A stretch of 64,000 nucleotides of DNA, from assembly GCA_017308235.1 (NCBI GenBank), contig JAFKFL010000010.1:310001-374000 (forward strand). Reading direction: 5' to 3'. The notes beneath the pieces are model-generated. The model made no database searches. It was not told the DNA's origin and was given only the letters and a program-made list of their open reading frames with translations. This document shows, in pieces, positions 1-46,549 of the stretch; within the stretch, counting starts at the first letter, position 1, and each line of letters starts with the position of its first letter. Both the position numbers and the translations under genes were made by a program. The DNA comes from Alphaproteobacteria bacterium (GTDB lineage: Bacteria > Pseudomonadota > Alphaproteobacteria > Reyranellales > Reyranellaceae).

Positions 1-89
1 ATGAAGCCCATGAGGCCGGCGAGCAGGATACCGGCGGTCAGCAGGGTGGTAGCGACGGGCCGCGCGATGAAGACACCCGAAAAGCTCAC
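1..89 (-). CDS. mdtC: RND multidrug efflux permease, MdtC-like (5' end only)
   Basis: Only the first 29 or so codons are in the window; the gene continues past the left edge. A GTG start at 87-89 overlaps the stop of the preceding permease gene by four bases (GTGA), so translation is probably coupled. The peptide begins with the [11 protein letters not shown]-type segment that opens the first transmembrane helix of HAE1-family RND pumps. Following an MdtB-like gene, it is best read as the MdtC partner; in E. coli MdtB and MdtC form a mixed trimer. The function assignment rests on context, as so little protein is visible. Confidence 0.7.
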
Positions 90-3000
90 GGCCGGAAGCC
101 CTCAGGCAGCTCGGTAGGCTCCGGTCCGCCGCCGCTCGCCAGGGGATAGGCCGGCGTGTCGAGCGGTATGCCGCGCAGGCGTCGCGCGATGCGGTCGAAG
201 GCGAGATAGATCACGGGCGTCGTGAAGAGCGTCAGCATCTGGCTCACGATCAGGCCACCGACGATGGTGAGACCCAGCGGATGGCGCAGCTCCGACCCGG
301 TGCCGGTGCCCAGCATCAGCGGCAGGGCGCCGACCAGTGCGGCGATGGTCGTCATGAGGATCGGCCGGAAGCGCAACAGGCAGGCCTGATGGATCGCCTC
401 CTGCGGCGCCTTGCCCTCGTGGCGCTCGGCGTCGAGTGCGAAGTCGATCATCATGATCGCGTTCTTCTTCACGATACCGATCAGCAGCACGATGCCGATG
501 ATGGCCACGACGCTGAGATCGTCGCCTGCGATCATGAGGGCGAGCAACGCACCGATGCCGGCCGACGGCAGGGTCGAAAGGATTGTGATGGGGTGGATGT
601 AGCTCTCGTAGAGCACGCCCAGCACGATATAGACGGTGACGATTGCTGCGAGGATCAGCAGGAGCTGGCTGTTGAGTGCCTTCTGGAAGGCGAGAGCGGC
701 GCCCTGGAAATGGGTCGAGATCGAGCGCGGCATCCCGATCTCCGCCTGCGCCTTGGTGATGGCGTCGACCGCAGCGCCAAGAGAAGCGCCCGGAGCCAGG
801 TTGAAGGAGATCGTGGTCGCCGGGAACTGGCTTAGCCGGTCGAGACGCAATGGGCCAGTCTGTTGCTCGAAGGTGGCGATCGCCGACAACGGCACCTGTT
901 TGCCGGACGTCGAGCCGGGAAGATAGAGGTTGTTCAGCGCGTCGAGCGAACCGGCCATCGAGGGCATGAGCTCGTAAATCACTCGATACTGGTTGGATTG
1001 CGTGTAGACGGTCGAGACGATGCGCTGGCCGAACGAATCGTAGAGCAGGTTATCGACCGTGGCGGCGGTGATGCCGAAGCGGGCGGCTGCGTCACGGTCG
1101 ATCTTGATGAACACCGTGAGGCCCTGGTTCTGCAGCTCGCTCGTGACGTCGACGATCTCGGGGATCTGCGACAGGCGTTGCACCAGCCGCGGCACCCAGG
1201 TGTCGAAGTCCTTTGGATTGGGGCTCTCCAGCACGAACTGATACTGCGTGCGGCTCACCGTCGAATCGATGGTGAGATCCTGCGACGGCTGCATGTAGAG
1301 CTGTATGCCCTCGACCGCAGCGGTCTCGCGCAGGATCCGGCGGATGATCTGGCTTGCCGACAGCGAGCGCGAATCGCGCTCCTTGAGGTTGATCAGCATG
1401 CGCCCGGAGTTGAGCGTCGGATTGGTGCCGTCGACGCCAACGAAGGAGCTGAGGCTCTCGACATCGGGATCCTTCAGGATCACGTCGGCAAGTGCACGTT
1501 GGCGATCACGCATGGCCTCGAACGAGACGGTTTGCGACGCTTCAGTGACCGCCTGGATCAGGCCATTGTCCTGGACCGGAAAGAAACCTTTGGGAATGGC
1601 GATGTAGAGCGCGACGGTCAGCGCCACCGTCGCGACCGCAACCAGGAGCGTGAGCGGCTGATGCCGGAACACGACCACCAAGCCGCGGTCGTAGAGATCG
1701 ATCAGTCTGCCGAACCAGCGGGCGCCCAGCGCCTGGGCCTCGGGATGGGCCGTCGCACTCGGGGGTGGCGGCTCGCCGGGGCGGCTCTGCCCGACGTCGC
1801 GCCGGCGCAGGAGCTGGGCGCACATCATGGGCACCAGCGTGAGCGAGACCACCGCCGAGATCAGGATGGTGACGGCGAGCGTGATTGCGAACTCGCCGAA
1901 CAGCCGGCCCACAACGTCGCCCATGAATAGGAGCGGGATCAGCACCGCAATCAGCGAGACAGTGAGCGACACGACGGTAAAGGCGATCTGGCTCGACCCC
2001 TTCAGGGCCGCCTCGAACGGATCGTCGCCTTCCTCGATATAGCGGGCGATGTTCTCGATCATGACGATCGCGTCGTCGACCACGAAGCCGGTCGCGATGG
2101 TGAGCGCCATGATCGAGAGATTGTTGAGCGAGAAGCCGGCGAGGTACATCACCGCCAGGGTGCCCACGAGCGACAATGGCACCGAGAGACTGGGAATGAT
2201 GGTGGCCCGCCAATCCCCCAGGAACAGGAAGATGACGGCCACCACCAGCAGGACGGCGAACGAAAGCTCGATCTGCACATCGCGTACCGAGGCCCGGATG
2301 GTGACCGTGCGGTCGGTCAGGACCGACACGTCGATCGAGGGCGGCAGCGTCTCGCGCAGTTGCGGCAACAGGGCCTTGATGTCGTTGACCACGGCAATGA
2401 CGTTGGCGCCGGGCTGCCGCTGCACGTTCACGATTACCGCCTGGTCGGTGTTCACCCAGGCGATCAGGCGATTGTTCTCCTGGCCGGCCTCGACACTGGC
2501 GACGTCGGAAAGCCTGACCGGCGCGCCATTCCGGTAGGCGACGATCACGTTGTTGAACAGCTTGGGATCGGTGATCTGGTCGTTGGCGTTGATCGTGTAA
2601 TTACGCGTCGGGCCGTCGAAGTTGCCCTTGGGTGTATTGACGTTGGCATTGGTGATGGTGGTGCGCAGGTCATCGACGTTGAGCCCGTAGGCGGCCAGCG
2701 CCGTCGGGTTGGCGCGGATGCGGTAGCCCGGCTTTTGCCCGCCTTCGAGTGTGACCAGGCCGACACCGGCAACCTGCGAGATCTTCTGGCCGAGCCTCAC
2801 GTCGATCAGGTCGTAGACCTTGGTAAGCGGTTCAGTCTTGGAGGTGACGGCAAGGGTCAGGATCGGCGCATCCGCCGGATTGACCTTGGCGTAGATCGGC
2901 GGGGCGGGAAGATCGGCTGGCAACAGGTTGCCGGCCGCGTTGATCGCCGCCTGGACCTGCTGTTCGGCGATGTCGATGCCGAGCGACAGGCTGAATTGCA

Positions 3001-3277
3001 GCGTGATCGCCGAAGCGCCGGCCGAGCTGGTCGAGGTCATCTGGTTGAGACCCGGCATCTGGCCGAACTGCCGCTCGAGCGGCGCCGTCACCGAGGAGGT
3101 CATCACCTCGGGCCCCGCGCCGGGATAGAGAGTGAGGACGCGGATGGTCGGGTAGTCGACCTGCGGCAACGCGGCGAGCGGCAGGAAGCGATAGGCGATC
3201 ACGCCCACCAGCATGATCGCCACCATCAGGAGGGATGTGCCGACCGGTCGCTCGATGAATATCCGCGACGGATTCAT
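86..3277 (-). CDS. mdtB: RND multidrug efflux permease, MdtB-like
   Basis: This 1063-residue inner-membrane proton/drug antiporter has the length and layout of the HAE1 RND family: TM1 at residues 10-30, a large periplasmic loop, a TM2-TM6 block from about 335, a second loop and a C-terminal TM block. The double aspartate of TM4 (D401-D402, in a [11 protein letters not shown] motif), needed for proton relay in AcrB-type pumps, is present. The N-terminal half strongly resembles E. coli MdtB, including the DYPTI and LYPGA segments. It starts 13 bases after the adaptor gene and overlaps the next permease, giving mdtABC order. Substrates cannot be read from sequence; MdtABC pumps export bile salts, novobiocin and similar compounds in enterics. 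Confidence 0.92.
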
Positions 3278-3290
3278 ACCGCGGACGCGA

Positions 3291-4505
3291 CTATTGGTTG
3301 GACTGCGCCGGACGTCCGGCGCCGCCGCCCGCTGCCTCTGCGTCCGCTCGGGCGGGCGCGGCGGCGACCGGTCTCGCCGGCACCCGGATCTTGCTCCCGT
3401 CGCGCAGGCGGTCAGCGCCGTCGATCACCACGCGATCGTTGAGCGCAAGGCCCTTGGTCACGGCGATCTTCTCGCCGTCGCTGGCGCCGGTCTCGATCAC
3501 TGCGATCTCCACCGTGTCGTCGGCCTTCACGCGATAGACAAAGGTGCCGGGCTGCCCTTTCTGGATTGCCGCGACCGGCACGACCAGCGCATCCCTCACC
3601 GTATCGACCAGCAGCCGGATATTGACGAACTGATTGGGGAACAGCGCTTCATCGCTGTTGTCGAACATCGCGCGCAACTTCACCGTGCCGGTGGTCGTGT
3701 CGATCTGGTTGTCGGTGGTGGCGAGCTTGCCGACACCCAGCTCGACCTTCTGTGCGCGATCGAGCGCCGTCGCCTGCAGGATCGCGCCCTCGCGCAGCCG
3801 CTTGCGCACCGCCGGCAGCGCATCCTCGGGGATGGGGAACAGCACCGACATCGGCTGCATCAGGGTGATGACGCAGATTCCGGTGGCATCGCCCATGGTC
3901 ACATAGTTGCCCTGGTCGACCAGGCGCAGGCCAATCCGGCCGTCGGTCGGCGCCACGATCCGGGTGTAGACGAGATTGAGCTTCGCCTGGTCCACCGCCG
4001 CGCGGTCGGTCACCAGCGTGGCCTCATATTGCCGGACCAGCGCGGCCTGGGTGTCATAGACCTGGCGGGCCACCGAGGCCTGGGCCACCAGCTTCTCGTA
4101 CCGTGCCAGGTCCAGCTCGGCATTCTTGAGCAGCGCCTGGTCCTTTTCCAGGGTGCCTATGGCTTGCTGAAGGGCGACGTCGTAAGGGCGCGGATCGACA
4201 ACCGCGAGCAGGTCGCCCTTCTTGACGGCCTGCCCTTCCGTGAAGGCGACCTGGACGAGCTGGCCCGTGATCTGGGTCTTGACGGTCACCGTCGCGAGCG
4301 GTGTGACGGTCCCCAGCGCCCTATCGACAATGGGGATATCGCCCTTCGCGACGCTCGCCAGGCCGACCGTGACCGCCTGGTTGGCGGCGGCGTTCCGGCC
4401 GCCCCGGCTCTGCGGCGCCGGTCCGGAATGCGTGAAATACCACGCGGCGCCGATGACGACCGCGAGCCCAACGCCAATCCCAAGCAGGGTGCGCAGTCGA
4501 TTCAT
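3291..4505 (-). CDS. mdtA: Membrane-fusion adaptor of RND pump, MdtA-like
   Basis: This 404-residue periplasmic adaptor bridges an RND pump to an outer-membrane channel. It starts with a signal/anchor helix at about residues 5-25. Next come the first lipoyl half (about 70-110, with the [18 protein letters not shown] segment), a coiled-coil hairpin (about 110-180), the second lipoyl half ([20 protein letters not shown]), a beta-barrel, and a C-terminal membrane-proximal domain. The extreme C-terminus is rich in Ala, Gly and Pro. It is the first gene of the mdtABC-like operon, 13 bases ahead of mdtB. No outer-membrane channel gene is visible in this operon, so it may use a TolC encoded elsewhere or beyond the left edge. 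Confidence 0.9.
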
Positions 4506-7231: not shown

Positions 7232-8584
7232 TCAGGCAGGCCTGAGTTTCAGGGTGAAGATCGCGCCGCCTTCCGGCCGGTTCGCGACAGTCACGCTACC
7301 GTCATGGGCTTCGGCCACGCGGGCGACGATCGCAAGGCCCAGGCCACGGCTCTCGCCGCTCTCGCGATCGCGTCGCCAGAAGCGGCGGAAGATCGATTCG
7401 CGATCGGCGTCGGGGATCCCCGGCCCGTCATCGAGAACTCGTACGCTGCCATCCTTGGTGACCTCGACCTCGATCGACACGCCAGGCGGCGTATGTCGGA
7501 TGGCGTTCTCGATCAGGTTGCGGACAGCGCGGAACAAGGCCTCGGCCTGGCCGCGCACCCACACCGGACCGGCATCGCCGATCAGCGCAATGGTCTTGGA
7601 CATCTCGACCGCCAGCGGCGCCATGAAGCCCACTGCGTCGGCGCAGACCGCCTGGAGATCGGCCTTCGAGTCGGTGCCCACGATGAAGGCCTCGAGCTCC
7701 GCGATGTCGAGCACCTGATTGACCGTGCGCGTCATGTTGACGAGATCGGCCCGCAACGCGTCGCGTGATGGGCCGGGCTCGAGCGAGTCGACGCGAGCGC
7801 GCACGATGGAAAGCGGCGTGCGCAGCTCGTGGGCCATGTCGGCGGTGAAGTCGCGTTGTGCGCGAAAGCCCGATTCGAGTCGGTCGAGGGCCTGGTTCAT
7901 CGCGTGAACCAAAGGCACGATCTCCTTGGGCAAGGACTGCTCGGGCAGTCGCAACTCGGTGCGCTGAGGCCCGATCGACGCCGCCGCCGTAGAGGCCGCT
8001 CGGACCGGCGCCAATGCCCGGCGGAAAATCAAGATGTCGATCAGCAGCAGGATCAGCAGGATTGGAAAGGTGATCCAGGCAACTCGTGGGAAGAATGAGC
8101 GCACGACATCATCGATGATCACGTCGCGGTGCGCGAGATCCTGTGCGACCTGGATCGAATAGAGCTTCTCGCCGATCGGCTGAATGACCGTGACGCCGAA
8201 CAACGTCGAACCGGTCCTGCTGTACCGGGTGGTCCATTCGCTGACCGACCGTGCGCTGGGAACGAACAACGCGCCGCCGTCGGCACGCGAGGTGAAAAGC
8301 ACGTGGTCCTCCGCATCCAGGACGGCGAAAGCGTAAAGGCCGTAGTCGGAGGAATAGAGCGGTCGGGCATCGGCCGGAATGTCGAGGGTAAGCTCGCCAT
8401 CGGACTGCGGGTGCAGATAGCTGCGGATGGTCAGCGCCTCACCGCGCAACGCATCGCGCAGAAGGGTGTTCGCGGCCTGGTTCAACAACCAATAGAGCGC
8501 CAGCGGCATCGCGATCGAGGTCGCGGCCAACGCCAGGATATGCAGCGCGACGATGCGCGTGATGATCGAATGGAAGCGGATCAT
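7232..8584 (-). CDS. Two-component sensor histidine kinase
   Basis: This 450-residue inner-membrane kinase has TM1 at about residues 10-35, a periplasmic sensor domain at about 36-165, TM2 at about 168-187, and a HAMP linker. The dimerisation domain has phospho-acceptor H252 in DMAHELRTPLS. The C-terminal ATPase domain shows the N box (NLIENAIRHT), G1 box (DDGPGIP) and G2 box (GLGLAIV). The domain order matches QseC/PmrB/TctE-type kinases. It lies 43 bases downstream of its response regulator, and the pair is divergent from the RND operon at 9466, so it probably controls that operon. The signal is unknown; the periplasmic domain shows no obvious metal-binding cluster. Confidence 0.92.
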   Translation of the reverse strand: MIRFHSIITRIVALHILALAATSIAMPLALYWLLNQAANTLLRDALRGEALTIRSYLHPQSDGELTLDIPADARPLYSSDYGLYAFAVLDAEDHVLFTSRADGGALFVPSARSVSEWTTRYSRTGSTLFGVTVIQPIGEKLYSIQVAQDLAHRDVIIDDVVRSFFPRVAWITFPILLILLLIDILIFRRALAPVRAASTAAASIGPQRTELRLPEQSLPKEIVPLVHAMNQALDRLESGFRAQRDFTADMAHELRTPLSIVRARVDSLEPGPSRDALRADLVNMTRTVNQVLDIAELEAFIVGTDSKADLQAVCADAVGFMAPLAVEMSKTIALIGDAGPVWVRGQAEALFRAVRNLIENAIRHTPPGVSIEVEVTKDGSVRVLDDGPGIPDADRESIFRRFWRRDRESGESRGLGLAIVARVAEAHDGSVTVANRPEGGAIFTLKLRPA

Positions 8585-8627
8585 GGCGACCGCCTCGGCT
8601 GGAAAAAGCCGCCGATCATCGGTGCCT

Positions 8628-9305
8628 CTATGATTTTTCCTCGACCATCAGGTAACCGACGCCGCGCACGGTATGGATCTTGGTCGTGGCGCCGGCATCG
8701 CTCAGCATCTTGCGCAGGCGATGGACGTAGACTTCGACGGCGTTCGACCCGACTTCGCCGGAGAGGCCGAATAGATGGTCCTCCAACAGCCGCTTGGGCG
8801 CGACATTGCCGCCGCGGCGCAGGAAGATCTCCAGCACGGCGGTCTCGCGCGCAGGAAAGGCATGCGCCATGCCGCCGATGAACACCTGTCGCCCTTCGGT
8901 GTCGAGTGAAACGTTGCCGAACGTGAGCTTGCGGCCCAGAAGATTGCCCGGCCGTCGCAGCAGCGCCTGAAGGCGTGCGACGAGCTCCTCCATGGCGAAG
9001 GGTTTGGGAAGATAATCGTCCGCGCCCTCGCGCAGGCCAGTGACGCGGTCAGTCACGCCGTCGCGCGCCGTCAGGACCAGAACAGGAGTCGAGTCGCCTT
9101 TGCGCCTCATCTCGCGCAGCAGCGTGAGCCCGTCCTCGTCGGGCAAGCCAAGATCGAGCACGACGGCGACATACTTCATGGCGGCGAGCGCCAACCGTGC
9201 ATCGGCGACGCTACCGACTGCATCCGCGGCCAAGCTGTTTTGCCCCAGACCCTTGATCAGGAGTGGCACCAGCTGCGGATTGTCCTCAACAAGAAGCACT
9301 CTCAT
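8628..9305 (-). CDS. OmpR-family response regulator
   Basis: This 225-residue DNA-binding regulator has a receiver domain (residues 1-115) with acidic pocket E7-D8, phospho-acceptor D51 and the conserved Lys in YLPKPF. The C-terminal winged helix (about 125-222) ends in the KIHTVRGVGYLM segment typical of OmpR/PhoB proteins. It is transcribed ahead of its kinase partner and divergently from the adaptor/RND operon. The 160-base region between the two start codons holds tandem repeats (9362-9394) that are candidate binding sites. It most resembles QseB/TctD-type regulators; no closer assignment is justified. Confidence 0.93.
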   Translation of the reverse strand: MRVLLVEDNPQLVPLLIKGLGQNSLAADAVGSVADARLALAAMKYVAVVLDLGLPDEDGLTLLREMRRKGDSTPVLVLTARDGVTDRVTGLREGADDYLPKPFAMEELVARLQALLRRPGNLLGRKLTFGNVSLDTEGRQVFIGGMAHAFPARETAVLEIFLRRGGNVAPKRLLEDHLFGLSGEVGSNAVEVYVHRLRKMLSDAGATTKIHTVRGVGYLMVEEKS

Positions 9306-9465: not shown

Positions 9466-10722
9466 ATGACGATCACTAAGCCGCCACCTCCTGCCTATGT
9501 AAGTGTAAGGCGCAACCGTCTTTGGATTGCGGGTGGCGGCGCGTTGGCCATCGTGGTGGCCGTGATCGCCTTCTGGGCGCTCGACAGCAGTTCAGGCAAC
9601 GCCGTCAGCCGGCCCAACACGGTAGCGCAGGATTCCGACGGAGCCTTCTCTCCAAGCGAGTCACAATGGGCCGGCCTCAAGGTCACGACGGTCCGCCAGG
9701 TAGCGTTCCGTGACGAACGCGTGACAGACGGCAAGATCGCGATCAACGAGGAGACGACGACTCCTGTCTTCTCGCCTTACTCCGGCCGCGTCAGCCGCCT
9801 GATTGCCAAGCCAGGCGACCATGTCGAGCGCGGCGCGCCGTTGTTTGCCATTGAGGCAACCGAGTTTGTTCAGGGCCAGAACGATCTCGTCACCGCGGTT
9901 GCAGGCGTCGAGAAGGCGAAGTCGAGGCTCGAGCTCGCCAAGACCACCGAGAAGCGCCAGCGCGAACTGCTGGCGATCAAGGGCGGCGCGCTCAAGGATC
10001 TCGAGCAGGCGCAGTCTGATCTGGTCAACGCCCAGGGCGACATGCGGTCGGCTGAGATCACCCTTGCCGCGGCCCGCAATCGCCTTCGCATCCTCGGCCG
10101 ATCGGACGAGGAAATCGCGCGCCTGGAGAAGGTCGACCGCATCGGCGCCGAGACCGTCGTCTCCGCACCGATCGAGGGAACCGTCATTCAACGCAAAGTC
10201 GGCCTTGGGCAGTACATCAACACCGGCGCGAGCGATCCGATCTTCACCGTCGGCGACCTCGGCACCGTCTGGCTGGTGGCGAACGTGCGCGAGTCCGATG
10301 CGCCGCTGATGAAGGTCGGCGCCCCGGTCGAGGTGTCCGTGCTGGCCTTTCCGGGCCGCACCTTCAACGCCAAGCTCGCCTATGTGGCGCCGGCGCTCGA
10401 TCCCAGTACCCGTCGCCTGCCGGTGCGCGCGGTGATCCAGAATCCGGGCCGAGAGCTTCTGCCGGAGATGTTCGCGATGTTCCGAATCGTGGCCGGCCAG
10501 AGCCGGTTGACGCCGGCGGTGCCGCAGGACGCTGTGATCTACGAAGGTGCGCAGGCGCGTGTTTGGGTCGCGCGGCCGGCCGACAAGAAGGTCGTGAGCC
10601 GCCCGATCGAGGTTGGCGGCACCGAGAACGGTCAGGTCGAGGTGCGCAAGGGTCTGTCGGTCGGTGAATCAGTGGTGACGAGCGGCACGTTGTTCATCGA
10701 CCGCGCGGCGGCACGCGACTGA
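9466..10722 (+). CDS. Periplasmic adaptor of HME-type RND efflux system
   Basis: This 418-residue membrane-fusion protein resembles the CzcB/CusB branch. It has a membrane anchor at about residues 21-40, a first lipoyl half with the VSRLIAKPGDHVERGAPLF segment, and a coiled-coil hairpin at about 150-215. The second lipoyl half reads VSAPIEGTVIQRKVGLGQY, followed by a barrel domain and a C-terminal domain. No N-terminal His- or Met-rich metal-binding extension is seen. It is the first gene of a five-gene operon, 21 bases ahead of the first RND permease, and is the operon's only adaptor, so it presumably serves both permeases. The start is supported by position only; the ribosome-binding site is weak. 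Confidence 0.9.
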   Translation: MTITKPPPPAYVSVRRNRLWIAGGGALAIVVAVIAFWALDSSSGNAVSRPNTVAQDSDGAFSPSESQWAGLKVTTVRQVAFRDERVTDGKIAINEETTTPVFSPYSGRVSRLIAKPGDHVERGAPLFAIEATEFVQGQNDLVTAVAGVEKAKSRLELAKTTEKRQRELLAIKGGALKDLEQAQSDLVNAQGDMRSAEITLAAARNRLRILGRSDEEIARLEKVDRIGAETVVSAPIEGTVIQRKVGLGQYINTGASDPIFTVGDLGTVWLVANVRESDAPLMKVGAPVEVSVLAFPGRTFNAKLAYVAPALDPSTRRLPVRAVIQNPGRELLPEMFAMFRIVAGQSRLTPAVPQDAVIYEGAQARVWVARPADKKVVSRPIEVGGTENGQVEVRKGLSVGESVVTSGTLFIDRAAARD

Positions 10723-10743
10723 TCGTCCGAGCCGCCGGTCGCC

Positions 10744-13700
10744 ATGAAAGCCATCATCGCCGCCGCGCTCAAGCAGCGCATCCTGGTCGTCATCCTGGCT
10801 GGCGTGCTGATGACGGGCGGCCTGTTCGCCTACGGACAGCTCAATATCGAGGCCTATCCCGATCCGGTGCCGCCGCTGGTCGACATCATCACCCAAAATC
10901 CCGGCCAGTCGTCGGAGGAGATCGAGCGCTACATCACGATCCCGATCGAGATCCAGATGGCGGGCATCCCCTACGTCAAGGCGATCCGCACCATCTCGTT
11001 GTTCGGTCTTTCCGACGTGAAGGTGCAGTTCACCTACGACCTCACCTACGAGCAGGCGGCGCAATACGTCATCAATCGGCTGAGCCAGCTCCCGCCGATG
11101 CCCAATGGCGTGCAGCCGCAGCTCTCGCCCACCAGCCCGATCGGGGAGATCTATCGCTATCGTGTCGTCGGCCCGCCGGGTTACACGGTGACCGACCTCA
11201 AGACCATCCAGGACTGGATCCTGCAGCGCCGCTTCAAGGCGATTCCCGGCGTCATCGACGTCACGGGCTGGGGCGGCAAGACCAAAACCTATGACATCAC
11301 CGTGGATCTTGCCCGATTGCAGGCCTACGGCCTCACGCTGAAGCAGGTGCTCGACGGCCTGAACAACGCCAACATCAACGTCGGCGCCAACACCGTGAAC
11401 ATCGGTCCGCAGTCGGCGATCGTGCGCTCGGTGGGCCAGATCCGTTCGATGGACGACATCCGCCAGACCATGCTGGCGGCGCCCAACGGCGCCCCTGTGC
11501 TGGTGTCGGACGTCGCGACGGTGACGGCCGGGAACGAACCTCGGCTCGGCATTGCCGGCCAGACCAGCGACGACGACATCGTGCAGGGCATCGTACTGAT
11601 GCGACGCGGTGCGCAGACGTTGCCGACCCTGCAAGGCGTGCTGGCCGAGGTCGACAAGATCAATTCCTCGGGTGTCCTGCCGCCCGGCGTGCGCATCGTG
11701 CGGATCTACGATCGCAGCCGGCTGGTCGACGTAACCACACACACCGTGCTGCACAACATGGTCGCGGGTGTCGTGCTCATCTTCCTTATCCAATGGCTGT
11801 TCCTGGGTGACCTGCGCAGCGCCCTGATCGTGTCGGCCACCATTCCCTTCGCCCTTCTGTTCGCTGTGACGATCCTGGTTCTGAGCGGCGAATCGGCGAA
11901 CCTACTCTCCATGGGCGCGATCGACTTCGGCATCATCGTCGATGCCACCGTCATCATGGTCGAGAACATCTTCCGCCACCTGTCGCAGGTGCGCGCGGGT
12001 CCGGGGCTACGGGCGGCAGCGCCCGTCCCGGCCGCTCTCACCGGTAAGCTTGCCGTGATCTTCACCGCCTCGACCGAGGTCACGCAGGCGATCTTCTTTG
12101 CCGCCACCATCATCATCGCGGGCTTCATGCCGCTCTTCACCCTGTCGGGCGTGGAAGGCCACATCTTCGGGCCGATGGCGAGGACCTATGCCTATGCCCT
12201 GTCGGGAGGGCTGCTGGCGACCTTCACCGTCTCGCCGGCCTTGTCGGCCCTGTTGCTGCCCGAGACGGTGGCCCATGCCGAGACGCGCGTGGTCCGGACA
12301 CTGGCCCGCCTCTATGCCCACGTCCGAGACCTCGTGCTCGACCGGCCGCGCACGACCATCTTTGCTGGGCTGGGCGCGGGCGCGCTGGCGGTGCTGGTGG
12401 CCAGCACGATTGGCCTCGAGTTCCTGCCCAAGCTCGAGGAAGGCAACATGTGGATCCGCGCCACGATGCCGTCCTCGATCTCACTCGAGACCGGCAACGA
12501 CTACGCCAATCGCATGCGCAAGCTGATCGCGAGCTTTCCCGAGACGGAGACCGTGATCTCCCAGCACGGTCGTCCCGATGACGGGACCGATTCCACTGGC
12601 TTCTTCAACGCCGAGTTCTTCGTGCCGCTGAAGCCGCTCGATCAATGGCGCAAGGGCGTCGACAAGGAAGCGCTGATCGCCGAGATGAACGAGGCGCTGG
12701 AGAAGGCCTTCCCCGGAGTCGAATTCAATTTCTCGCAGTACATCCAGGACAACGTCGAAGAAGCGGCCTCGGGCGTGAAAGGCGAGAACTCGGTCAAGGT
12801 CTTCGGCAACGACCTCGAGACGCTGGCCAAGGTGGCCGACGAGATAAAGGCCGCAATGGAGACGGTGCCCGGCGTCACCGACCTGTCGGTCTTCGCCTCA
12901 TTGGGGCAACCGACCATCCGTATCGATATCGACCGCAGCAAGGCCGCCCGCTACGGCCTCGCTCCTGGCGACATCAATGCCACGGTGCAGGCGGCGGTCG
13001 GCGGACAGGCGGCGGGCGATCTCTATGAGAACGGTAGCGACCGGCACTTCCCGATGGTCGTGCGCCTGGCGCCGCGTTATCGCCAGAGCCTCGAGGCGAT
13101 CCGGAGCATCCCGATCGGCGTGCAGGGTCCCAACGGCGTCACCCAGGTGCCTTTGTCGGAAGTGGCGACCGTGCAGCTCGTTTCAGGCGCGTTCTACATC
13201 TACCGCGAGCAGCAGCAGCGCTACGTGCCGGTCAAGTTCAGCGTACGCGGCCGCGACCTCGGCAGCGCGGTTCTCGAGGCCCAGCAACGTGTCGCCGAGA
13301 AGGTGAAAATTCCCGGCGGCTACCGTGTCGAATGGGTGGGCGAGTTCGGCAACCTCAAGGCCGCCCTGCACCGGCTGGCGATCGCCGTGCCGATCGCCAT
13401 CTCGCTGATCCTGCTGCTGCTCTACGTCAGCTTCGGCAACGTGCGCGACATGCTGCTGGCCGGCAGCGCCATTCCGATGGCCCTGACCGGCGGGTTGCTG
13501 TCGCTGTTCGTCTTCGGCATGCCGTTCAGCATTTCCGCCGCCATCGGCTTCGTCGCGCTGTTCGGCATCGCGGCGATGAACGGGATCATGGTGCTGTCCT
13601 GTTACAACCGCCTGATCGATTCGGGACTCGATCGCCCCAATGCGCTGAGGCAAACCTGCGAGCAGCAGATGCGTCCGGTGCTGATGACCTGCGTGGCAGC

Positions 13701-13899
13701 GTGCGTGGGCCTCCTGCCGGCCGCCTTCTCGACCGCGATTGGAAGCCAGGTCCAGCGGCCGCTGGCGGTCGTCATCGTGGGCGGCACGCTACTCGCACCT
13801 TTCCTGTTCCTGACCGTCCTGCCAGCCGCGATCGGCCTCTTCTCTCGCCGCCAACCCAGGATCGGCGTGCCCGCGCCCAGCGACATCGAGGCGCCGTGA
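10744..13899 (+). CDS. RND efflux permease, HME (CzcA-like), first copy
   Basis: This 1051-residue inner-membrane permease has the full RND duplicated layout. TM4 carries D394, D400 and E407 in GAIDFGIIVDATVIMVEN, matching the DFG-VD-EN pattern of CzcA-type heavy-metal pumps (D402, D408, E415 of CzcA), rather than the double Asp of drug pumps. The central region also follows CzcA (SQHGRPDDGTD and FNFSQYIQDNVEEA). It has no methionine triad of the CusA kind. The stop overlaps the start of the channel gene by one base (TGATG). A second permease of about 75% identity, by hand count over the first 150 residues, follows at 15501. The true substrate, metal or organic, is not established. Confidence 0.92.
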   Translation: MKAIIAAALKQRILVVILAGVLMTGGLFAYGQLNIEAYPDPVPPLVDIITQNPGQSSEEIERYITIPIEIQMAGIPYVKAIRTISLFGLSDVKVQFTYDLTYEQAAQYVINRLSQLPPMPNGVQPQLSPTSPIGEIYRYRVVGPPGYTVTDLKTIQDWILQRRFKAIPGVIDVTGWGGKTKTYDITVDLARLQAYGLTLKQVLDGLNNANINVGANTVNIGPQSAIVRSVGQIRSMDDIRQTMLAAPNGAPVLVSDVATVTAGNEPRLGIAGQTSDDDIVQGIVLMRRGAQTLPTLQGVLAEVDKINSSGVLPPGVRIVRIYDRSRLVDVTTHTVLHNMVAGVVLIFLIQWLFLGDLRSALIVSATIPFALLFAVTILVLSGESANLLSMGAIDFGIIVDATVIMVENIFRHLSQVRAGPGLRAAAPVPAALTGKLAVIFTASTEVTQAIFFAATIIIAGFMPLFTLSGVEGHIFGPMARTYAYALSGGLLATFTVSPALSALLLPETVAHAETRVVRTLARLYAHVRDLVLDRPRTTIFAGLGAGALAVLVASTIGLEFLPKLEEGNMWIRATMPSSISLETGNDYANRMRKLIASFPETETVISQHGRPDDGTDSTGFFNAEFFVPLKPLDQWRKGVDKEALIAEMNEALEKAFPGVEFNFSQYIQDNVEEAASGVKGENSVKVFGNDLETLAKVADEIKAAMETVPGVTDLSVFASLGQPTIRIDIDRSKAARYGLAPGDINATVQAAVGGQAAGDLYENGSDRHFPMVVRLAPRYRQSLEAIRSIPIGVQGPNGVTQVPLSEVATVQLVSGAFYIYREQQQRYVPVKFSVRGRDLGSAVLEAQQRVAEKVKIPGGYRVEWVGEFGNLKAALHRLAIAVPIAISLILLLLYVSFGNVRDMLLAGSAIPMALTGGLLSLFVFGMPFSISAAIGFVALFGIAAMNGIMVLSCYNRLIDSGLDRPNALRQTCEQQMRPVLMTCVAACVGLLPAAFSTAIGSQVQRPLAVVIVGGTLLAPFLFLTVLPAAIGLFSRRQPRIGVPAPSDIEAP

Positions 13900-15443
13900 T
13901 GAGGCCTGTGGCGCTTCTTCTCGCCGGCTCGGCTCTTTGTTCAGCGCTCTCGGGCTGCATGGTGGGGCCGGACTTCAAGCGCCCGTCTCCGCCGAAGACG
14001 GAAGCCTATCTTTCCTCCGATCCGCCGACCGATCTCGTCGCTGGCGGAATCCCCGGCGGCGAGGCGCAGACCTTGGTGCGCGGCATGGATATCCCTGGCC
14101 AATGGTGGCAGGTGTTCCAGTCGACGCCACTCAACGGCCTGATCGAGAGCGCGTTGCGCGCCAATCCGGACGTGCAGGCAGCGGCAGCCGGACTCAAGGT
14201 GGCGAAGGAGAATGCCCGTGCCCAGCGCGCCACGCTCTTCCCCACGATCCAGGCGAATTTCGGCGCGTCACAGAACGAGACACCCGGTAGCCTGTCGCCC
14301 GCGACCGCGTCGGGCGCCACGATCTTCGGGCTGTTCACGGCCGGCCTTACCCTCACCTATGCGCTCGATCTGTGGGGCGGCAACCGGCGCCAGATCGAAT
14401 CGCTCGACGCGCTCGCCGAGGCGCAATGCTTCCAGCTCGAAGGCGCCTATCTGTCGCTGGCGTCGAACGTCGTGGCTGCGGCGGTGCAAGAAGCCTCGCT
14501 GCGCGCCCAGATCGATGCCACCCAGCGCATCATCGCCGCGCAGCAGACGACGCTCGGCATCCTGCGCGGGCAGGCCAATCTCGGCGCCATTCCCGGTGGC
14601 GATGTCGCGACCCAGCAGGCCGCCCTCGCCCAGGCCGAAGCGACCTTGCCGCCGTTGCAGAAAGCGCTGGAGCAACAACGCAACCTGATCGCCACCCTGA
14701 CCGGACGTTTGCCGAGCGACAACATCGCGGCTCGCTTTCGTCTCGAAGACCTCACCCTGCCGCACGATCTGCCGCTCAGCCTGCCCTCCCGGCTCGTCGA
14801 GCAACGACCTGACGTGCGCGCTGCAGAGTCCAACCTCCATTCGGCGAGCGCCCTGGTCGGCGTTGCAGTCGCCAATCAGTTCCCGCAGATCACCCTCACC
14901 GCCAACATCAACACGCAGTCGCTCAGCACCGACACCTTGTTCGGGCCCGGCCTCACCGGCATGGCGGTCGGCGCCAGCGCCCTGCAGACGATCATCGACG
15001 GTGGGGCGCTCGCAGCAAAGAAGCGCGCCGCCAAGGCAGGCCTCGAGCAAGCCGATGCGCAATATCGCTCGGTCGTTCTCACCGCTTTCCGCAATGTCGC
15101 CGACACGCTGCGGGCGCTGCAGTACGACGCCATCACGCTCAAAGCTTCCGTCGATGCCGAGCAGGCCGCCGCGACCAGCCTTGATATCGCGCAGCGCCGG
15201 CTCGCGCTTGGCGACACGACCTACGTGACCGTGCTGCTGGCCCAGCTCACCTATCAGCAGACGTTGCTCAATCGCGTCCAGGCACAGGCGGCGCGCTTCA
15301 CCGACACGGCGGCCTTGTTCCAGGCTCTGGGCGGCGGCTGGTGGAACCGCGCGCCCGGACCCGAAGAGCAGGCGCGCCGTCTGCGCTGTCGCCCGCCGAC
15401 ACGCGACGATCGCGTTGCACAAGAGGTGAAGACGCAGCAGTAG
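13899..15443 (+). CDS. Outer-membrane efflux lipoprotein, NodT/OprM type
   Basis: This 514-residue TolC-like channel is anchored by a lipid. The signal peptide ends in the lipobox LSGC at about residue 20, followed by the family-typical MVGPDFKRP. Two OEP repeats follow: the first around 70-275 with FPTIQANFGAS and DLWGGNRR, the second from about 290 with VEQRPDVRAAESNLHSA. The ATG at 13899 is chosen for its one-base overlap with the permease stop and for the lipobox; the frame is open far upstream but only as a shadow of the permease. It supplies the outer-membrane exit duct for the pumps of this operon. Confidence 0.93.
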   Translation: MRPVALLLAGSALCSALSGCMVGPDFKRPSPPKTEAYLSSDPPTDLVAGGIPGGEAQTLVRGMDIPGQWWQVFQSTPLNGLIESALRANPDVQAAAAGLKVAKENARAQRATLFPTIQANFGASQNETPGSLSPATASGATIFGLFTAGLTLTYALDLWGGNRRQIESLDALAEAQCFQLEGAYLSLASNVVAAAVQEASLRAQIDATQRIIAAQQTTLGILRGQANLGAIPGGDVATQQAALAQAEATLPPLQKALEQQRNLIATLTGRLPSDNIAARFRLEDLTLPHDLPLSLPSRLVEQRPDVRAAESNLHSASALVGVAVANQFPQITLTANINTQSLSTDTLFGPGLTGMAVGASALQTIIDGGALAAKKRAAKAGLEQADAQYRSVVLTAFRNVADTLRALQYDAITLKASVDAEQAAATSLDIAQRRLALGDTTYVTVLLAQLTYQQTLLNRVQAQAARFTDTAALFQALGGGWWNRAPGPEEQARRLRCRPPTRDDRVAQEVKTQQ

Positions 15444-15500
15444 TGCGACAGCAGAAACTATGCATTAGCTGGCGACCGGGGGAGGCAATTCAGGGTCGCC

Positions 15501-18500
15501 ATGCAAGCCGTCGTCGGCGCCGCGTTGCAGCGGCGTGTCTTGGTGCTGATCCTCGCGGCCGTGCTGATCGCCGCGGGGCTGTTCGCCTATAAGCGGCTCA
15601 ACATCGAGGCCTATCCCGACCCAGTGCCGCCGCTGGTCGAGATCGTGACCCAGAATCCCGGCCAATCGTCGGAAGAAATCGAACGCTACATCACGATTCC
15701 GATCGAAGTGCAGATGGCCGGGCTGCCTTATGTGACCACGGTTCGCACGATCTCGTTGGTCGGATTGTCCGACGTGAAGGTGCAGTTCACCTACGATGTC
15801 AGTTACCGCGAGGCCTCGCAGCTGGTCATCAATCGGCTGAGCCAGCTCGGCACCTTGCCGGGCAACGCCCAGCCGCAACTGTCCCCGACCAGCCCGATCG
15901 GCGAAATCTACCGCTACCGTTTGATCGGGCCACCGGGTTACTCCGTGACGGATCTGAAGACGCTCCAGGACTGGGTTCTTGACCGTCGTTTCAAGTCGGT
16001 GCCGGGTGTGATCGATGTCACCGGCTGGGGCGGCAAGCTCAAGACCTATGACATCACGATCGATTTCGATCGACTACTCGCCTACGGCCTGACCTTGAAA
16101 CAGGTGCTCGATTCCCTGAGCGGCGCCAACATCAATGTCGGCGCCAACACCGTCAATCTCGGCCCACAGTCGGCCGTCATCCGCAGCGTCGGCCAGATCC
16201 GCTCGATGCACGATATCCGGCACACCATGCTGGGCATCCGTAAGGGCGCGCCAGTACTCGTCGGCGATGTCGCGACGGTGTCTGTGGGCTTCGAGCCGCG
16301 TCTCGGGATCTGCGGTCAGGACGTCGATAACGACATCGTGCAGGGCATCGTGCTGATGCGGCGAGGTGCGCAGACGCTGCCGACTCTCGAAGCCGTGGAG
16401 CGCGAGGTCGAGCGCATCAACAAGTCGGACCTGTTGCCTCCGGGCGTGCGAATCGTGCGGATCTACGACAGGCGGGTGCTGGTCGATGTGACCACACGCA
16501 CTGTCCTGCACAACATGGTGATGGGCGTCGCCCTCATCTTCCTGATCCAGTGGCTCTTCCTGGGGGATCTGCGCAGCGCGCTGATCGTGGCGGCGACCAT
16601 TCCTTTCGCCCTTCTGTTTGCCGTCACGATCCTCGTGCTGAACGGCGAGTCGGCCAACCTGCTGTCGATGGGCGCGATCGACTTCGGCATCATTGTCGAT
16701 GCCACGGTCATCATGATGGAGAACATATTCCGACATCTGGCCGAGGCCGGCGCCGGCCATCGATCGTCCGCCGTCGAGCCGCCGCGCGGTTTCACCGGCA
16801 AGATCGGCATCATTTTCACCGCCTCGGGCGAGGTCACGCGGGCGATCTTCTTTGCCGCCACCATCATCATCGCCGGCTTCCTTCCGTTGTTCACGCTTTC
16901 AGGCGTCGAGGGCCACATCTTCGGACCGATGGCCAAGACCTACGCCTACGCGCTGTCGGGTGGCCTGCTAGCCACCTTCACCGTGTCGCCCGCGCTGGCT
17001 GCTGTGCTGCTGCCCGAGAAGGTCGCCGAGACCGAAACGGCGATCGTCCGTTTCCTGAGGCGCAGCTATCGGCCGATCATCGGCATGGTGATCGCTCGTC
17101 GCCGCCTTGTCCTCGGCGCCGGCGCCGGTCTTGCAGCGATCGCCGCGTTCGTCGCGAGCACGGTCGGCCTGGAATTCCTGCCCAAGCTCGAGGAAGGCAA
17201 CATCTGGATGCGCGCCACCATGCCGGCCTCGGTATCGCTCGAGGAAGGCAACGTCTACGTCAACAAGATGCGCGCAGTGATGAAAAGCTTCCCCGAGGTC
17301 GTGACGGTGGTTTCCCAGAACGGTCGCCCCGACGACGGCACCGATCCCGACGGCTTTTCCAACGGCGAGTTCTTCGTACCGCTGAAGCCAATGGAGCAAT
17401 GGCGCAAGGGTCTCGACAAGGAGACGTTGATCGCGCAGATGTCCGACGCCTTGCGCAAAGCGGTGCCAGGCGTGAACTATGCCTTTTCGCAGTATATCCA
17501 GGACAACGTCCAGGAAGCCGCGTCCGGCATCGATGCCGAGAACGCCATCAAGATCATCGGCACCGACCTCGACCGGCTGCACACGCTTTCCGGAGAGATC
17601 CGCAGAGTGCTTGAGAAAGTCCCCGGCATCACCGACATCGCCGTGCCCCCTCTCGTCGGGCAACCGACCATCCGCATCGATATCGACCGCGACCGGGCGG
17701 CACGCTATGGCCTATCGCCGGGCGACATCAACGCCACTATCCAGGCCGCCGTCGGCGGACAGGCAGCTGGTGATCTCTACGAGACGGGCAGCGATCGGCA
17801 CTTCCCCATGAAGGTGCGGCTGGCGCCGCAGTATCGTCAGAACATGGAATCGTTGCGCCGGCTCACCATCGGCACGCAGGCCGATGGCGCGGTCACGCAG
17901 GTGCCGTTGGGCGAGGTGGCGGAGATCGGACTGGCATCCGGCGCCTTCTATATCTACCGCGAGCAGCAGGAGCGGTTCGTGCCGGTGAAGTTCAGCGTCC
18001 GCGGTCGCGATCTCGGTTCGGCCGTTCTGGAGGCGCAGGAGCGCGTCGCCCGGGAAGTGCCGCTGCCAAGCGGCTATCGGCTCGAATGGGCCGGCGACTT
18101 CGAGAATTTCCAGAAGGCCATCGACCGGCTGTCCATCGCCGTGCCGATCGCCATCGCGCTCATCCTGCTGCTGCTTTACGTCAACTTCGGATCGCTCGCC
18201 GACACGTTGCTGGCCGGCAGCGCCATTCCCATGGCCTTGATCGGCGGCATCCTGTCGCTGTGGCTGGCCGGCATGCCGTTCAGTATCTCCGCCGCCATCG
18301 GCTTCGTCGCGTTGTTCGGTATCGCTGCCATGAACGGGATCATGGTGGTCGGTTGCTTCAACCGCCTGACCGAGGCTGGCGTCGAACGTTGGGAGGCGGT
18401 CCGGCGGACCTGCGAGCTGCAGATGCGTCCGGTGTTGATGACCTGTGTTGCGGCGTGCGTGGGTCTCCTGCCGGCCGCCTTCTCGACCGCCATCGGCAGC

Positions 18501-18632
18501 CAGGTTCAGCGCCCACTCGCCATCGTGGTCGTGGGCGGCATGCTGCTGTCGCCGGTGCTGTTTCTCACCGTGCTGCCTGCCGCCGTCGGCGTCTTCTCTC
18601 GCCGACGCGTTGCGGCTACACAAGAGATGTGA
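15501..18632 (+). CDS. RND efflux permease, HME (CzcA-like), second copy
   Basis: This 1043-residue paralogue of the permease at 10744 is colinear with it without a gap over the first 410 residues and carries the same TM4 residues (D394, D400, E407). Divergence is concentrated at the N-terminus, around residues 101-123, and at the C-terminus. Both copies are intact, so this is an old duplication rather than a recent repeat. It follows the channel gene by 57 bases and overlaps the hydrolase gene by four bases (GTGA). Two permeases sharing one adaptor and one channel recall MdtB/MdtC, where the two form a mixed trimer; whether that happens here is inference. Confidence 0.92.
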   Translation: MQAVVGAALQRRVLVLILAAVLIAAGLFAYKRLNIEAYPDPVPPLVEIVTQNPGQSSEEIERYITIPIEVQMAGLPYVTTVRTISLVGLSDVKVQFTYDVSYREASQLVINRLSQLGTLPGNAQPQLSPTSPIGEIYRYRLIGPPGYSVTDLKTLQDWVLDRRFKSVPGVIDVTGWGGKLKTYDITIDFDRLLAYGLTLKQVLDSLSGANINVGANTVNLGPQSAVIRSVGQIRSMHDIRHTMLGIRKGAPVLVGDVATVSVGFEPRLGICGQDVDNDIVQGIVLMRRGAQTLPTLEAVEREVERINKSDLLPPGVRIVRIYDRRVLVDVTTRTVLHNMVMGVALIFLIQWLFLGDLRSALIVAATIPFALLFAVTILVLNGESANLLSMGAIDFGIIVDATVIMMENIFRHLAEAGAGHRSSAVEPPRGFTGKIGIIFTASGEVTRAIFFAATIIIAGFLPLFTLSGVEGHIFGPMAKTYAYALSGGLLATFTVSPALAAVLLPEKVAETETAIVRFLRRSYRPIIGMVIARRRLVLGAGAGLAAIAAFVASTVGLEFLPKLEEGNIWMRATMPASVSLEEGNVYVNKMRAVMKSFPEVVTVVSQNGRPDDGTDPDGFSNGEFFVPLKPMEQWRKGLDKETLIAQMSDALRKAVPGVNYAFSQYIQDNVQEAASGIDAENAIKIIGTDLDRLHTLSGEIRRVLEKVPGITDIAVPPLVGQPTIRIDIDRDRAARYGLSPGDINATIQAAVGGQAAGDLYETGSDRHFPMKVRLAPQYRQNMESLRRLTIGTQADGAVTQVPLGEVAEIGLASGAFYIYREQQERFVPVKFSVRGRDLGSAVLEAQERVAREVPLPSGYRLEWAGDFENFQKAIDRLSIAVPIAIALILLLLYVNFGSLADTLLAGSAIPMALIGGILSLWLAGMPFSISAAIGFVALFGIAAMNGIMVVGCFNRLTEAGVERWEAVRRTCELQMRPVLMTCVAACVGLLPAAFSTAIGSQVQRPLAIVVVGGMLLSPVLFLTVLPAAVGVFSRRRVAATQEM

Positions 18633-19423
18633 GCAGAGACGACTTCATCGATCTTGGCGACCGGACGCTGCGCGTGCGCCGTCTGGCGCCGCAACGCCAC
18701 GACGGACTCGATCGCACGACGCTCGTCTTCCTGCACGAGGGACTGGGCTGCATCGAGATGTGGCGCGATTTTCCGCAAAAGCTTTGCGACGCCACGATGT
18801 GTCCCGGCCTGATCTACGACCGCACGGCCTACGGGAAATCCAGCCCCTGGCCCTCCGATCCGGGCGTCCGCTACATGGAAATCGAGGCCGACATCGTGTT
18901 GCCGAGGCTGCTGGCCGCGACCGGAATCGAGGATTGCGTGCTGGTGGGCCACAGCGACGGCGGCACCATAGCCCTCAACTACGCCGCCGCCGATCCAGAG
19001 CCATTGCGCGCCGTCGCCACGCTGGCTGCCCATGCGATCAACGAGCCGATCTGCGTCGAGAGGATCGTGGAGGCCCAGGCCGCCTTCGCCTCCGGCGACC
19101 TGCGCCAGCGGTTGGCGAAGTATCACGGCGACAATGTCGACCGCGCCTTCCATCTTTGGGCGGACGCGTGGGCCGCGCCCGGGTTCGAGCCCATGGACGC
19201 GAACGGACGACTGCCCGGCGTGCAGGTCCCGACACAGGCCATCCAGGGCGAGGACGACGAATACGGCACCGAGTTGCAGCTCGGCATCATCGCCGGCAAG
19301 GTCGGCGGCTACTGCGAGACGCGGCTGGTGCCGGATTGCGGCCATAGCCCGCACCTTCAACAGCCGGCGTATGTGCTCGCCGAAATGAGCCGCTTCATCG
19401 CGCCCCTGGCGCTGGCGGGCTGA
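18629..19423 (+). CDS. Alpha/beta-hydrolase coupled to the RND operon
   Basis: This 264-residue cytoplasmic hydrolase without a signal peptide has nucleophile S109 in GHSDGG, an oxyanion-hole segment near FLHEGLG (residues 34-40) and a C-terminal His in DCGHSPHLQQP. The acid residue is probably in the GEDDEYG loop. The GTG start at 18629 overlaps the permease stop (GTGA), which strongly suggests translational coupling. The family includes esterases, C-C bond hydrolases and haloperoxidase-like enzymes; the substrate is not predictable. Its place as the last gene of an efflux operon suggests it modifies a compound handled by the pump. Confidence 0.88.
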   Translation: MSRDDFIDLGDRTLRVRRLAPQRHDGLDRTTLVFLHEGLGCIEMWRDFPQKLCDATMCPGLIYDRTAYGKSSPWPSDPGVRYMEIEADIVLPRLLAATGIEDCVLVGHSDGGTIALNYAAADPEPLRAVATLAAHAINEPICVERIVEAQAAFASGDLRQRLAKYHGDNVDRAFHLWADAWAAPGFEPMDANGRLPGVQVPTQAIQGEDDEYGTELQLGIIAGKVGGYCETRLVPDCGHSPHLQQPAYVLAEMSRFIAPLALAG

Positions 19424-19443: not shown

Positions 19444-19521
19444 TTGCGTTGCAGTCGCCGGACTTGACGATGGCGCTACCGGCCATCTTCCATGCAAGGA
19501 AGAAGGAAGAGGAGGAAGCGC

Positions 19522-20724
19522 ATGGAGACCACGATCAAGGTCCGGACCGCCTACGATCTGCCGCCGCCTTCGTTCGATCCAAACCTGGTCTCGGTGGCCA
19601 GGGGCACACCCGGCGGCGAACTGCTGCGACGCTACTGGCAGCCCGTCGCGCTTGCCACCGAAGTTGGCGATCTTCCGCTGCAGATCCGCGCGTTGGGCGA
19701 GGACCTCATCCTGTTCCGGACTCCGTCGGGGCGATTCGGCCTGATGCATCCTCGCTGTGCCCACCGTGGTACGACGCTGCTCTATGGCAAGGTCGAGGAG
19801 CGCGGCATCCGCTGCTGCTACCATGGCTGGCTGTTCGACACCGACGGCCGCTGCCTGGGGCAGCCCTGCGAGCCCAAGGGCGGACTCAATCGCGACCATG
19901 TCCGCCAGCCGTCTTATCCGGTGGAAGAGCGTTACGGACTGGTCTTCGCTTATATGGGCCCTCTCGACCGCAAGCCCGCGTTGCCGCGCTACGATGTGCT
20001 GGAGGATCTCGGCGAGACGCACAAGATCGTCACCGACGGCAGCAGCATCGGATCGGGCGGGCCAGAGCGCATGCCCTGCAATTGGTTCCAGACCCACGAG
20101 AACGTGATGGATCCACTGCATGTGTTCGTGCTGCACAGCACGTTCAGCACGCAGCAGTTCAACGACATGATGGCGGTGCCGCCCGAGATCTCGTTCGACC
20201 TCACGCCCTACGGCATGTACTCGGTCCAGCTTCGCACCTTCGCCGATGGCTCCCGGCTGCGACGGCTGACCGAGCTTGTCATGCCCAACATCCGCATCGT
20301 CGCCGATCCGTTCCTCAGGACCTTCACCAAGAGCAACAACGTCGCCTGGACGCTTCCCATCGACGACACCAACACGCGCATCTTCACGGTTTTCGCCTTT
20401 CCCAAGAACGAGCCGGTGCCGCGCTTCAACCGCAATCCAATGTATGGCGGCAAGACCTGGTTCGAGCTCGACGCCGAAGGCCACCAGCGCTTCCCGGGCG
20501 ATTACGAAGCCCAGGTTGGCCAAGGCGCGGTCACCTGGCATTCCGAGGAACATCTCGCCAGCAGCGATCGCGGCGTGGCGATGTTCCGTCGTCTCTATCG
20601 CGAGGCAGTACAGGCCGTGACCGACGGCCACGATCCGGTCGGCGCGTCGGCGGGCGAAAACATGTTGGTGCAAGTCCGCGCTGGCAACTACCTGATACCG
20701 ATGGCAAGCGCCGCCAGCGACTGA
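19522..20724 (+). CDS. Rieske non-heme iron oxygenase, alpha subunit
   Basis: This 400-residue ring-hydroxylating or demethylating oxygenase component has the Rieske 2Fe-2S site CxH-x16-CxxH at about residues 76-97 (CAHRG then CCYHGW). The mononuclear iron site is in the catalytic domain, with the NVMDPLHVFVLH segment supplying two His; the acid ligand lies further on. It is closest to the phthalate-oxygenase/vanillate-demethylase type of subunit. ATG 19522 is chosen because GAGGAA lies just upstream. No reductase or ferredoxin gene is nearby, so electron donors must be encoded elsewhere. The substrate is unknown; the upstream hydrolase belongs to another transcription unit if the hairpin at 19425 terminates. 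Confidence 0.9.
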   Translation: METTIKVRTAYDLPPPSFDPNLVSVARGTPGGELLRRYWQPVALATEVGDLPLQIRALGEDLILFRTPSGRFGLMHPRCAHRGTTLLYGKVEERGIRCCYHGWLFDTDGRCLGQPCEPKGGLNRDHVRQPSYPVEERYGLVFAYMGPLDRKPALPRYDVLEDLGETHKIVTDGSSIGSGGPERMPCNWFQTHENVMDPLHVFVLHSTFSTQQFNDMMAVPPEISFDLTPYGMYSVQLRTFADGSRLRRLTELVMPNIRIVADPFLRTFTKSNNVAWTLPIDDTNTRIFTVFAFPKNEPVPRFNRNPMYGGKTWFELDAEGHQRFPGDYEAQVGQGAVTWHSEEHLASSDRGVAMFRRLYREAVQAVTDGHDPVGASAGENMLVQVRAGNYLIPMASAASD

Positions 20725-39799: not shown

Positions 39800-39975
39800 G
39801 GCCTGTCTCCAATGCCGTGATTGACGGTGCCCGCCATGACCGGGCGATAGGGACGGTCAGCGGCGGGCGCCGTGGCATCGTCGGGATTGGGTGGAGCGGA
39901 TACCGCAGGCAGCGGCGCACTGTTGCTGCAGGCGGCGAGCAGCCCGACGAACAGGACGAGAAAAATGGTCCTCAC
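39796..39975 (-). CDS. Small lipoprotein embedded in the Cus-type operon
   Basis: This 59-residue product has a signal peptide and lipobox LLAAC (C16), then a Pro/Ala-rich tail with no further Cys or His pair. The GTG start at 39973-39975 overlaps the CusA stop (GTGA), and the stop overlaps the channel gene start (ATGA). These four-base overlaps at both ends make it very likely to be a true gene despite its size. It is the only gene between pump and channel, so it may be an accessory subunit of the efflux complex. No named family recognised. Confidence 0.75.
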   Translation of the reverse strand: MRTIFLVLFVGLLAACSNSAPLPAVSAPPNPDDATAPAADRPYRPVMAGTVNHGIGDRP

Positions 39976-46538: not shown

Positions 46539-46549
46539 GAGCGCGAACC

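Follow-up and report, generated by a model that had tools for sequence, protein, structure and literature searches.

Two paralogous HME-type RND permeases share one adaptor and one outer-membrane channel in Reyranella and may act as alternative motors

Gene content and metal site of the pump locus

The window analysed here is a 64,000-nucleotide stretch of contig C27 from a 6.3 Mb assembly whose source genome is placed in Reyranella (Alphaproteobacteria); the nearest named loci are those of Enhydrobacter aerosaccus ATCC 27094 (FUWJ01000002) and of several Reyranella records. Five genes follow one another on the forward strand. The first encodes a periplasmic adaptor (MFP) of the CusB/HlyD_D23 type (9466..10722; PF16576, and TIGR01730 above cut-off). 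Next come an HME-type RND permease, here RND1 (10744..13899), an outer-membrane channel of the NodT type (OMF, OEP; 13899..15443; 398 bits to TIGR01845), a second and paralogous permease, RND2 (15501..18632), and an alpha/beta hydrolase of the Ser-His-Asp type (18629..19423), recognized by PF00561 and by the motifs GHSDGG, GEDD and GHsPH. Successive junctions measure 21, -1, 57 and -4 bases, so the five-gene, one-direction layout given in an earlier note on this sequence is confirmed in full. The stop codon of RND1 and the start codon of the channel gene share one base (TGATG), and the hydrolase starts with a GTG at 18629, within GTGA.

That note did not include a two-component system (7232-9305) that is part of the pump locus. 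It is encoded on the reverse strand, divergent from the pump, and comprises an OmpR-type response regulator (8628..9305), assigned by profile matches and a response-regulator tree, and a sensor histidine kinase (7232..8584) with the Pfam architecture 2CSK_N-HAMP-HisKA-HATPase, kept at most Reyranella loci. The divergent region between response regulator and adaptor is 160 bp long. A promoter scan of the locus gave no sigma-70-like match, and sequences resembling terminators did not exceed the background level; therefore, no promoter or terminator is claimed.

The assignment of both permeases to the HME branch, made earlier from the sequence, holds. Model TIGR00914 (CusA/CzcA, HME RND permeases) has a curated cut-off of 701.45 bits, which RND1 (887.8 bits) and RND2 (896 bits) both exceed, and a maximum-likelihood tree groups the two with HME permeases and away from MdtB and MdtC. 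The acidic proton-relay motif of TM4, DFGxxxD...EN, is present in both as DFGIIVDATVIM(V/M)EN. Among relatives with solved structures, ZneA is the closest and CusA the next. With support of 100, the tree clusters RND1 and RND2, apart from CzcA, CusA and ZneA, with a chromid permease of Cupriavidus metallidurans CH34 (locus L119) to which they are about 51-52% identical, and which we take as ZniA from its position about 10 kb from ZneA, not from annotation. ZniA has been described, on the basis of motif, as an exporter of divalent cations (PMC11647595).

CusA, whose copper site is the Met triad M573/M623/M672 (PMC8092243), served as the yardstick for metal-site columns. R, N and E take the place of the triad in RND1, in RND2, in the L119 permease and in all 50 outgroup permeases, while the equivalent of E625 is kept; the TM4 acidic residues and all four metal-site columns (R, N, E, E) are identical in RND1, RND2 and the presumed ZniA. 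Other methionine pairs of CusA are mostly missing from RND1 and RND2. A copper pump (HME4, Cu/Ag) was rejected on the absence of the triad. Also rejected was asymmetric inactivation of one permease, as occurs in some heteromers, of which neither the proton-relay nor the metal-site columns show any sign. Because the residues R/N/E/E are common to RND1, RND2, the L119 permease and the outgroup, a divalent cation of the ZniA type is our best guess at the likeliest substrate. Two points speak against taking a metal substrate for granted: the M573 position is Arg, and the sensor kinase, at 199.7 bits, scores below the cut-off of 292.6 for the heavy-metal sensor family TIGR01386.

Origin and divergence of the two permeases

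RND1 and RND2 agree at 768 of 1037 positions (74% identity), with one gap of one residue, close to the 75% estimated before by hand over the first 150 residues. In the permease tree, RND1 (26 rows) and RND2 (17 rows) form sister clades with SH-aLRT support of 99 and 100, and the node that joins them has 100. Nearly every outgroup locus from other Proteobacteria, at 63-69% identity, contains a single MFP-RND-OMF set. Such strongly supported sister clades point to a single duplication at the root of Reyranella as the source of the pair, and the tree and the locus layout agree with the earlier proposal that the permeases arose by duplication around a common adaptor and channel. Purifying selection acts on both copies, with dN/dS of about 0.08-0.30 for RND1 and about 0.10-0.39 for RND2.

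Borders of the PC1, PC2 and docking subdomains are those of AcrB, transferred by alignment. Twenty-one positions are fixed differently between the RND1 and RND2 clades, and 13 of the 21 fall in PC1/PC2, which make up 15% of the protein (hypergeometric p ~1e-6). They include positions 617-621, immediately ahead of metal-site columns N622 and E624, and position 679, near metal-site E673. Over the first part of PC2, RND1 and RND2 from the same genome average 53% identity, against 81-85% inside each clade. Identity to the outgroup in PC2 is 71% for RND1 but 51% for RND2, which marks RND2 as the derived copy, moved away from the outgroup, and RND1 as the ancestral-like one. The docking domains, by contrast with the substrate side, carry a clade-fixed difference at just 1 of 177 positions, a pattern that suggests that the copies diverged on the substrate side while the surfaces used in assembly stayed mostly unchanged. 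Confinement of the divergence to PC1/PC2 supplies specific residues for swap tests of metal specificity.

Conservation and loss within Reyranella

The arrangement first noted in one genome is conserved beyond it and is no product of chance. The exact order MFP-RND1-OMF-RND2-hydrolase is found in the window and at L033, L040 and L043, and five more loci (L041, L042, L044, L045 and L046) have all five genes with one extra gene between the channel and RND2. The insert between channel and RND2 encodes a class III cyclase at L042, L044, L045, L046 and L052, and is an antisense MFS gene at L041; a hidden second adaptor between channel and RND2, considered as a candidate, is thus absent from these relatives. 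The inserted class III adenylate/guanylate cyclase is about 340 residues long and occurs at this place in one Reyranella subgroup.

Both permeases are kept in 15 Reyranella loci. With docking domains almost free of clade-fixed differences, nothing visible bars mixed trimers, and a facultative version, in which RND1 and RND2 assemble 2:1 or 1:2 with properties of their own while each is also able to act alone, is a possible but less likely reading. It draws on the high identity with one gap, on the docking domains, on a single predicted transcript and on the retention of both permeases in those 15 loci. There is, however, no sign that one copy has lost its proton relay or metal site while the other kept them, and the cyclase or antisense MFS gene splits the permease genes in six relatives, so that equal co-production is not protected.

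Eight loci have RND1 only (L029, L030, L032, L034, L035, L053, L152 and L154), with MFP-RND1-OMF followed directly by an intact hydrolase gene; L034 has in addition a short C-terminal remnant similar to RND2. Two loci have RND2 only, in the order MFP-OMF-RND2 and with adaptor and channel intact: L051 in genome G016 (77% complete) and L151 in G339 (97% complete). No RND1 was found elsewhere in G016 or G339 at E <= 1e-250. Counted over supported branches only of the response-regulator tree, the RND1-only and RND2-only states each entail at least two changes. The earlier note had named degeneration of one permease in relatives as evidence that would count against it, and this is seen in part, RND2 being missing from eight loci (as a remnant in one) and RND1 from two. 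Because RND1-only and RND2-only loci alike retain the adaptor and the channel, either permease is very probably functional without the other when joined to these shared parts. One further RND2 copy, G325:C187:473-3607 (L156), reads with one in-frame TAG and is either a pseudogene or an assembly error.

These losses bear on whether RND2 is a redundant, decaying duplicate that has survived by chance and is being lost. Several losses of RND2, one of them with a remnant, would fit that picture, as would the in-frame TAG in the G325 reading and a slightly faster protein evolution. Decay is nevertheless unlikely, given a dN/dS well below 1 across species, cleft changes that are fixed and conserved throughout the RND2 clade, and two lineages that lost RND1 yet kept RND2.

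The hydrolase is distributed more widely than the pump. Of 61 Reyranella genomes sampled, 57 have it; in the same 61, a search with RND2 gave any permease match at E <= 1e-250 in 33, a few of which have more distant paralogues only. Six pump-less loci (L150, L157, L160, L161, L162 and L165) consist of the kinase and regulator genes, 130-230 bp, the hydrolase, about 1 kb, and an aconitase gene, and at L158 the hydrolase and aconitase genes occur but those for kinase and regulator do not. In G013 the pump lies elsewhere in the genome, and L159 is a pump-less copy of the locus joining two-component system and hydrolase. Occurrence of the hydrolase is therefore not limited to genomes with the pump. 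Its candidacy as a pump partner, and with it the earlier suggestion that it processes a compound handled by the pump, falls away: this is a near-universal Reyranella gene that occupies the same chromosomal place where the pump is absent.

These findings weigh against the scheme put forward at the outset, in which an HME counterpart of MdtBC works only as a heterotrimer and the hydrolase belongs to its pathway. It would account for two permeases, one adaptor and one channel in a single operon; either permease has been lost while adaptor and channel were retained (eight RND1-only and two RND2-only loci), and the hydrolase keeps its position in pump-less genomes. We consider it highly improbable.

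The pump is instead a cassette set between the two-component system and the hydrolase. Repeated loss or exchange of this cassette is more likely than the hydrolase joining a pump, because response regulators of pump-less loci are scattered among pump-bearing ones in the response-regulator tree, and because related two-component genes flank related pumps elsewhere: in Rhodopila (L063), in Bradyrhizobiaceae (L085) and at the C9 paralogue in this genome (L129). The two-component system stays divergent to the hydrolase at pump-less L150, L157, L159-L162 and L165, which suggests that the hydrolase may be a target of the divergent regulator. In the window, a Rieske-type oxygenase gene (19492-20724) lies between hydrolase and aconitase; among the related loci mapped it occurs in this genome only, with no tblastn match reported in the others.

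Interpretation and comparison with known systems

The explanation that we favor, at a probability of roughly 0.55, is one efflux frame with two alternative homotrimeric HME motors, of which RND2 has a changed cleft. Adaptor and channel would form one tripartite, proton-driven frame powered by either permease, with RND1 and RND2 as alternative homotrimers on the shared parts. RND1 retains the ancestral cleft, and RND2, an older duplicate within the operon, has undergone remodelling of its PC1/PC2 substrate cleft. The second motor would widen or shift the exported range, probably ZniA-type divalent transition-metal cations. Control of expression presumably lies with the divergent two-component system, and the hydrolase is a separate, older neighbor, placed under the pump's divergent region in loci where the pump is absent. 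Most RND2-bearing Reyranella genomes also retain RND1, which is what cooperation between the permeases would predict and which counts against alternative homotrimers.

In the literature searched, none of the characterised HME systems is built in this way, in keeping with the earlier note, whose author knew of none. ZniCBA/ZneCBA of C. metallidurans are HME systems for divalent cations, and the presumed ZniA has the same residues as RND1 and RND2 at the metal-site columns (R, N, E, E) and the same DFG-D-EN helix; the Reyranella locus differs in having two paralogous permeases per adaptor and channel, in the order B-A-C-A'. MdtABC and MuxABC, drug pumps of HAE-1 clade B, likewise combine two paralogous RND permeases and one adaptor in one operon, but the Reyranella copies are HME rather than HAE-1, are 74% rather than about 50% identical (PMC7015380, PMC10872679), are separated by the channel gene, and can each be lost. 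CusCFBA of Escherichia coli (HME4, Cu/Ag) shares the superfamily, the tripartite plan and the CusB-type adaptor, whereas in Reyranella R/N/E stands in place of the Met triad and most of the other CusA methionine pairs are absent.

Two-permease HME loci were also found outside Reyranella. An Acetobacteraceae metagenome bin (L101:5491-14672) contains a direct MFP-RND-RND-OMF tandem from the same ZniA-like clade, an independent duplication. In another proteobacterial family, the locus OMF-CusA-PII-CusB-CusA' of G353 (L166:4664-14106; G353:C5:325000-344000) resembles that of Reyranella in its one channel, one adaptor and two HME permeases, here 72% identical, and differs in its copper-type CusA branch, its downstream multicopper oxidase and its independent origin; a PII-like gene and CusB lie between the permeases. 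Relatives of G353, from several related genera, have adjoining CusA genes, about 30-40 bp apart in G583 and G427 and within 350 bp in G572, G434 and G417. Since Reyranella, L101, and G353 with its relatives all show them, two-permease HME loci are recurrent, and in the literature searched they are seemingly undescribed. A published survey that covered 920 genomes and 6205 RND proteins assigned all of its 203 tandem permease pairs to HAE-1 clade B (Mdt/Mux), and the HME pairs stand against that published confinement (PMC10872679). A broader proposal holds that such forms evolved repeatedly (in Reyranella, the Acetobacteraceae lineage and the CusA-type family) and that the two copies, where both are present, assemble into mixed trimers whose metal range is wider or changed, an HME counterpart of MdtBC with several independent origins; we regard it as rather doubtful. 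Loci that arose more than once, some since reduced to either copy, amount to a natural test of alternative homotrimers against mixed trimers.

Further RND genes lie in the same window. On the reverse strand, 86-4505 and its continuation to C27:306838 encode an adaptor and an RND permease, next to which the contig has another permease; there seems to be a Mux/Mdt-like two-permease drug pump close to the HME locus in this genome. Another HME permease, CusA-like and with a Met ligand in each of the three triad columns, is encoded at 39975-43343 (reverse strand), and a permease of yet another HME type at 46061-49684 (forward strand).
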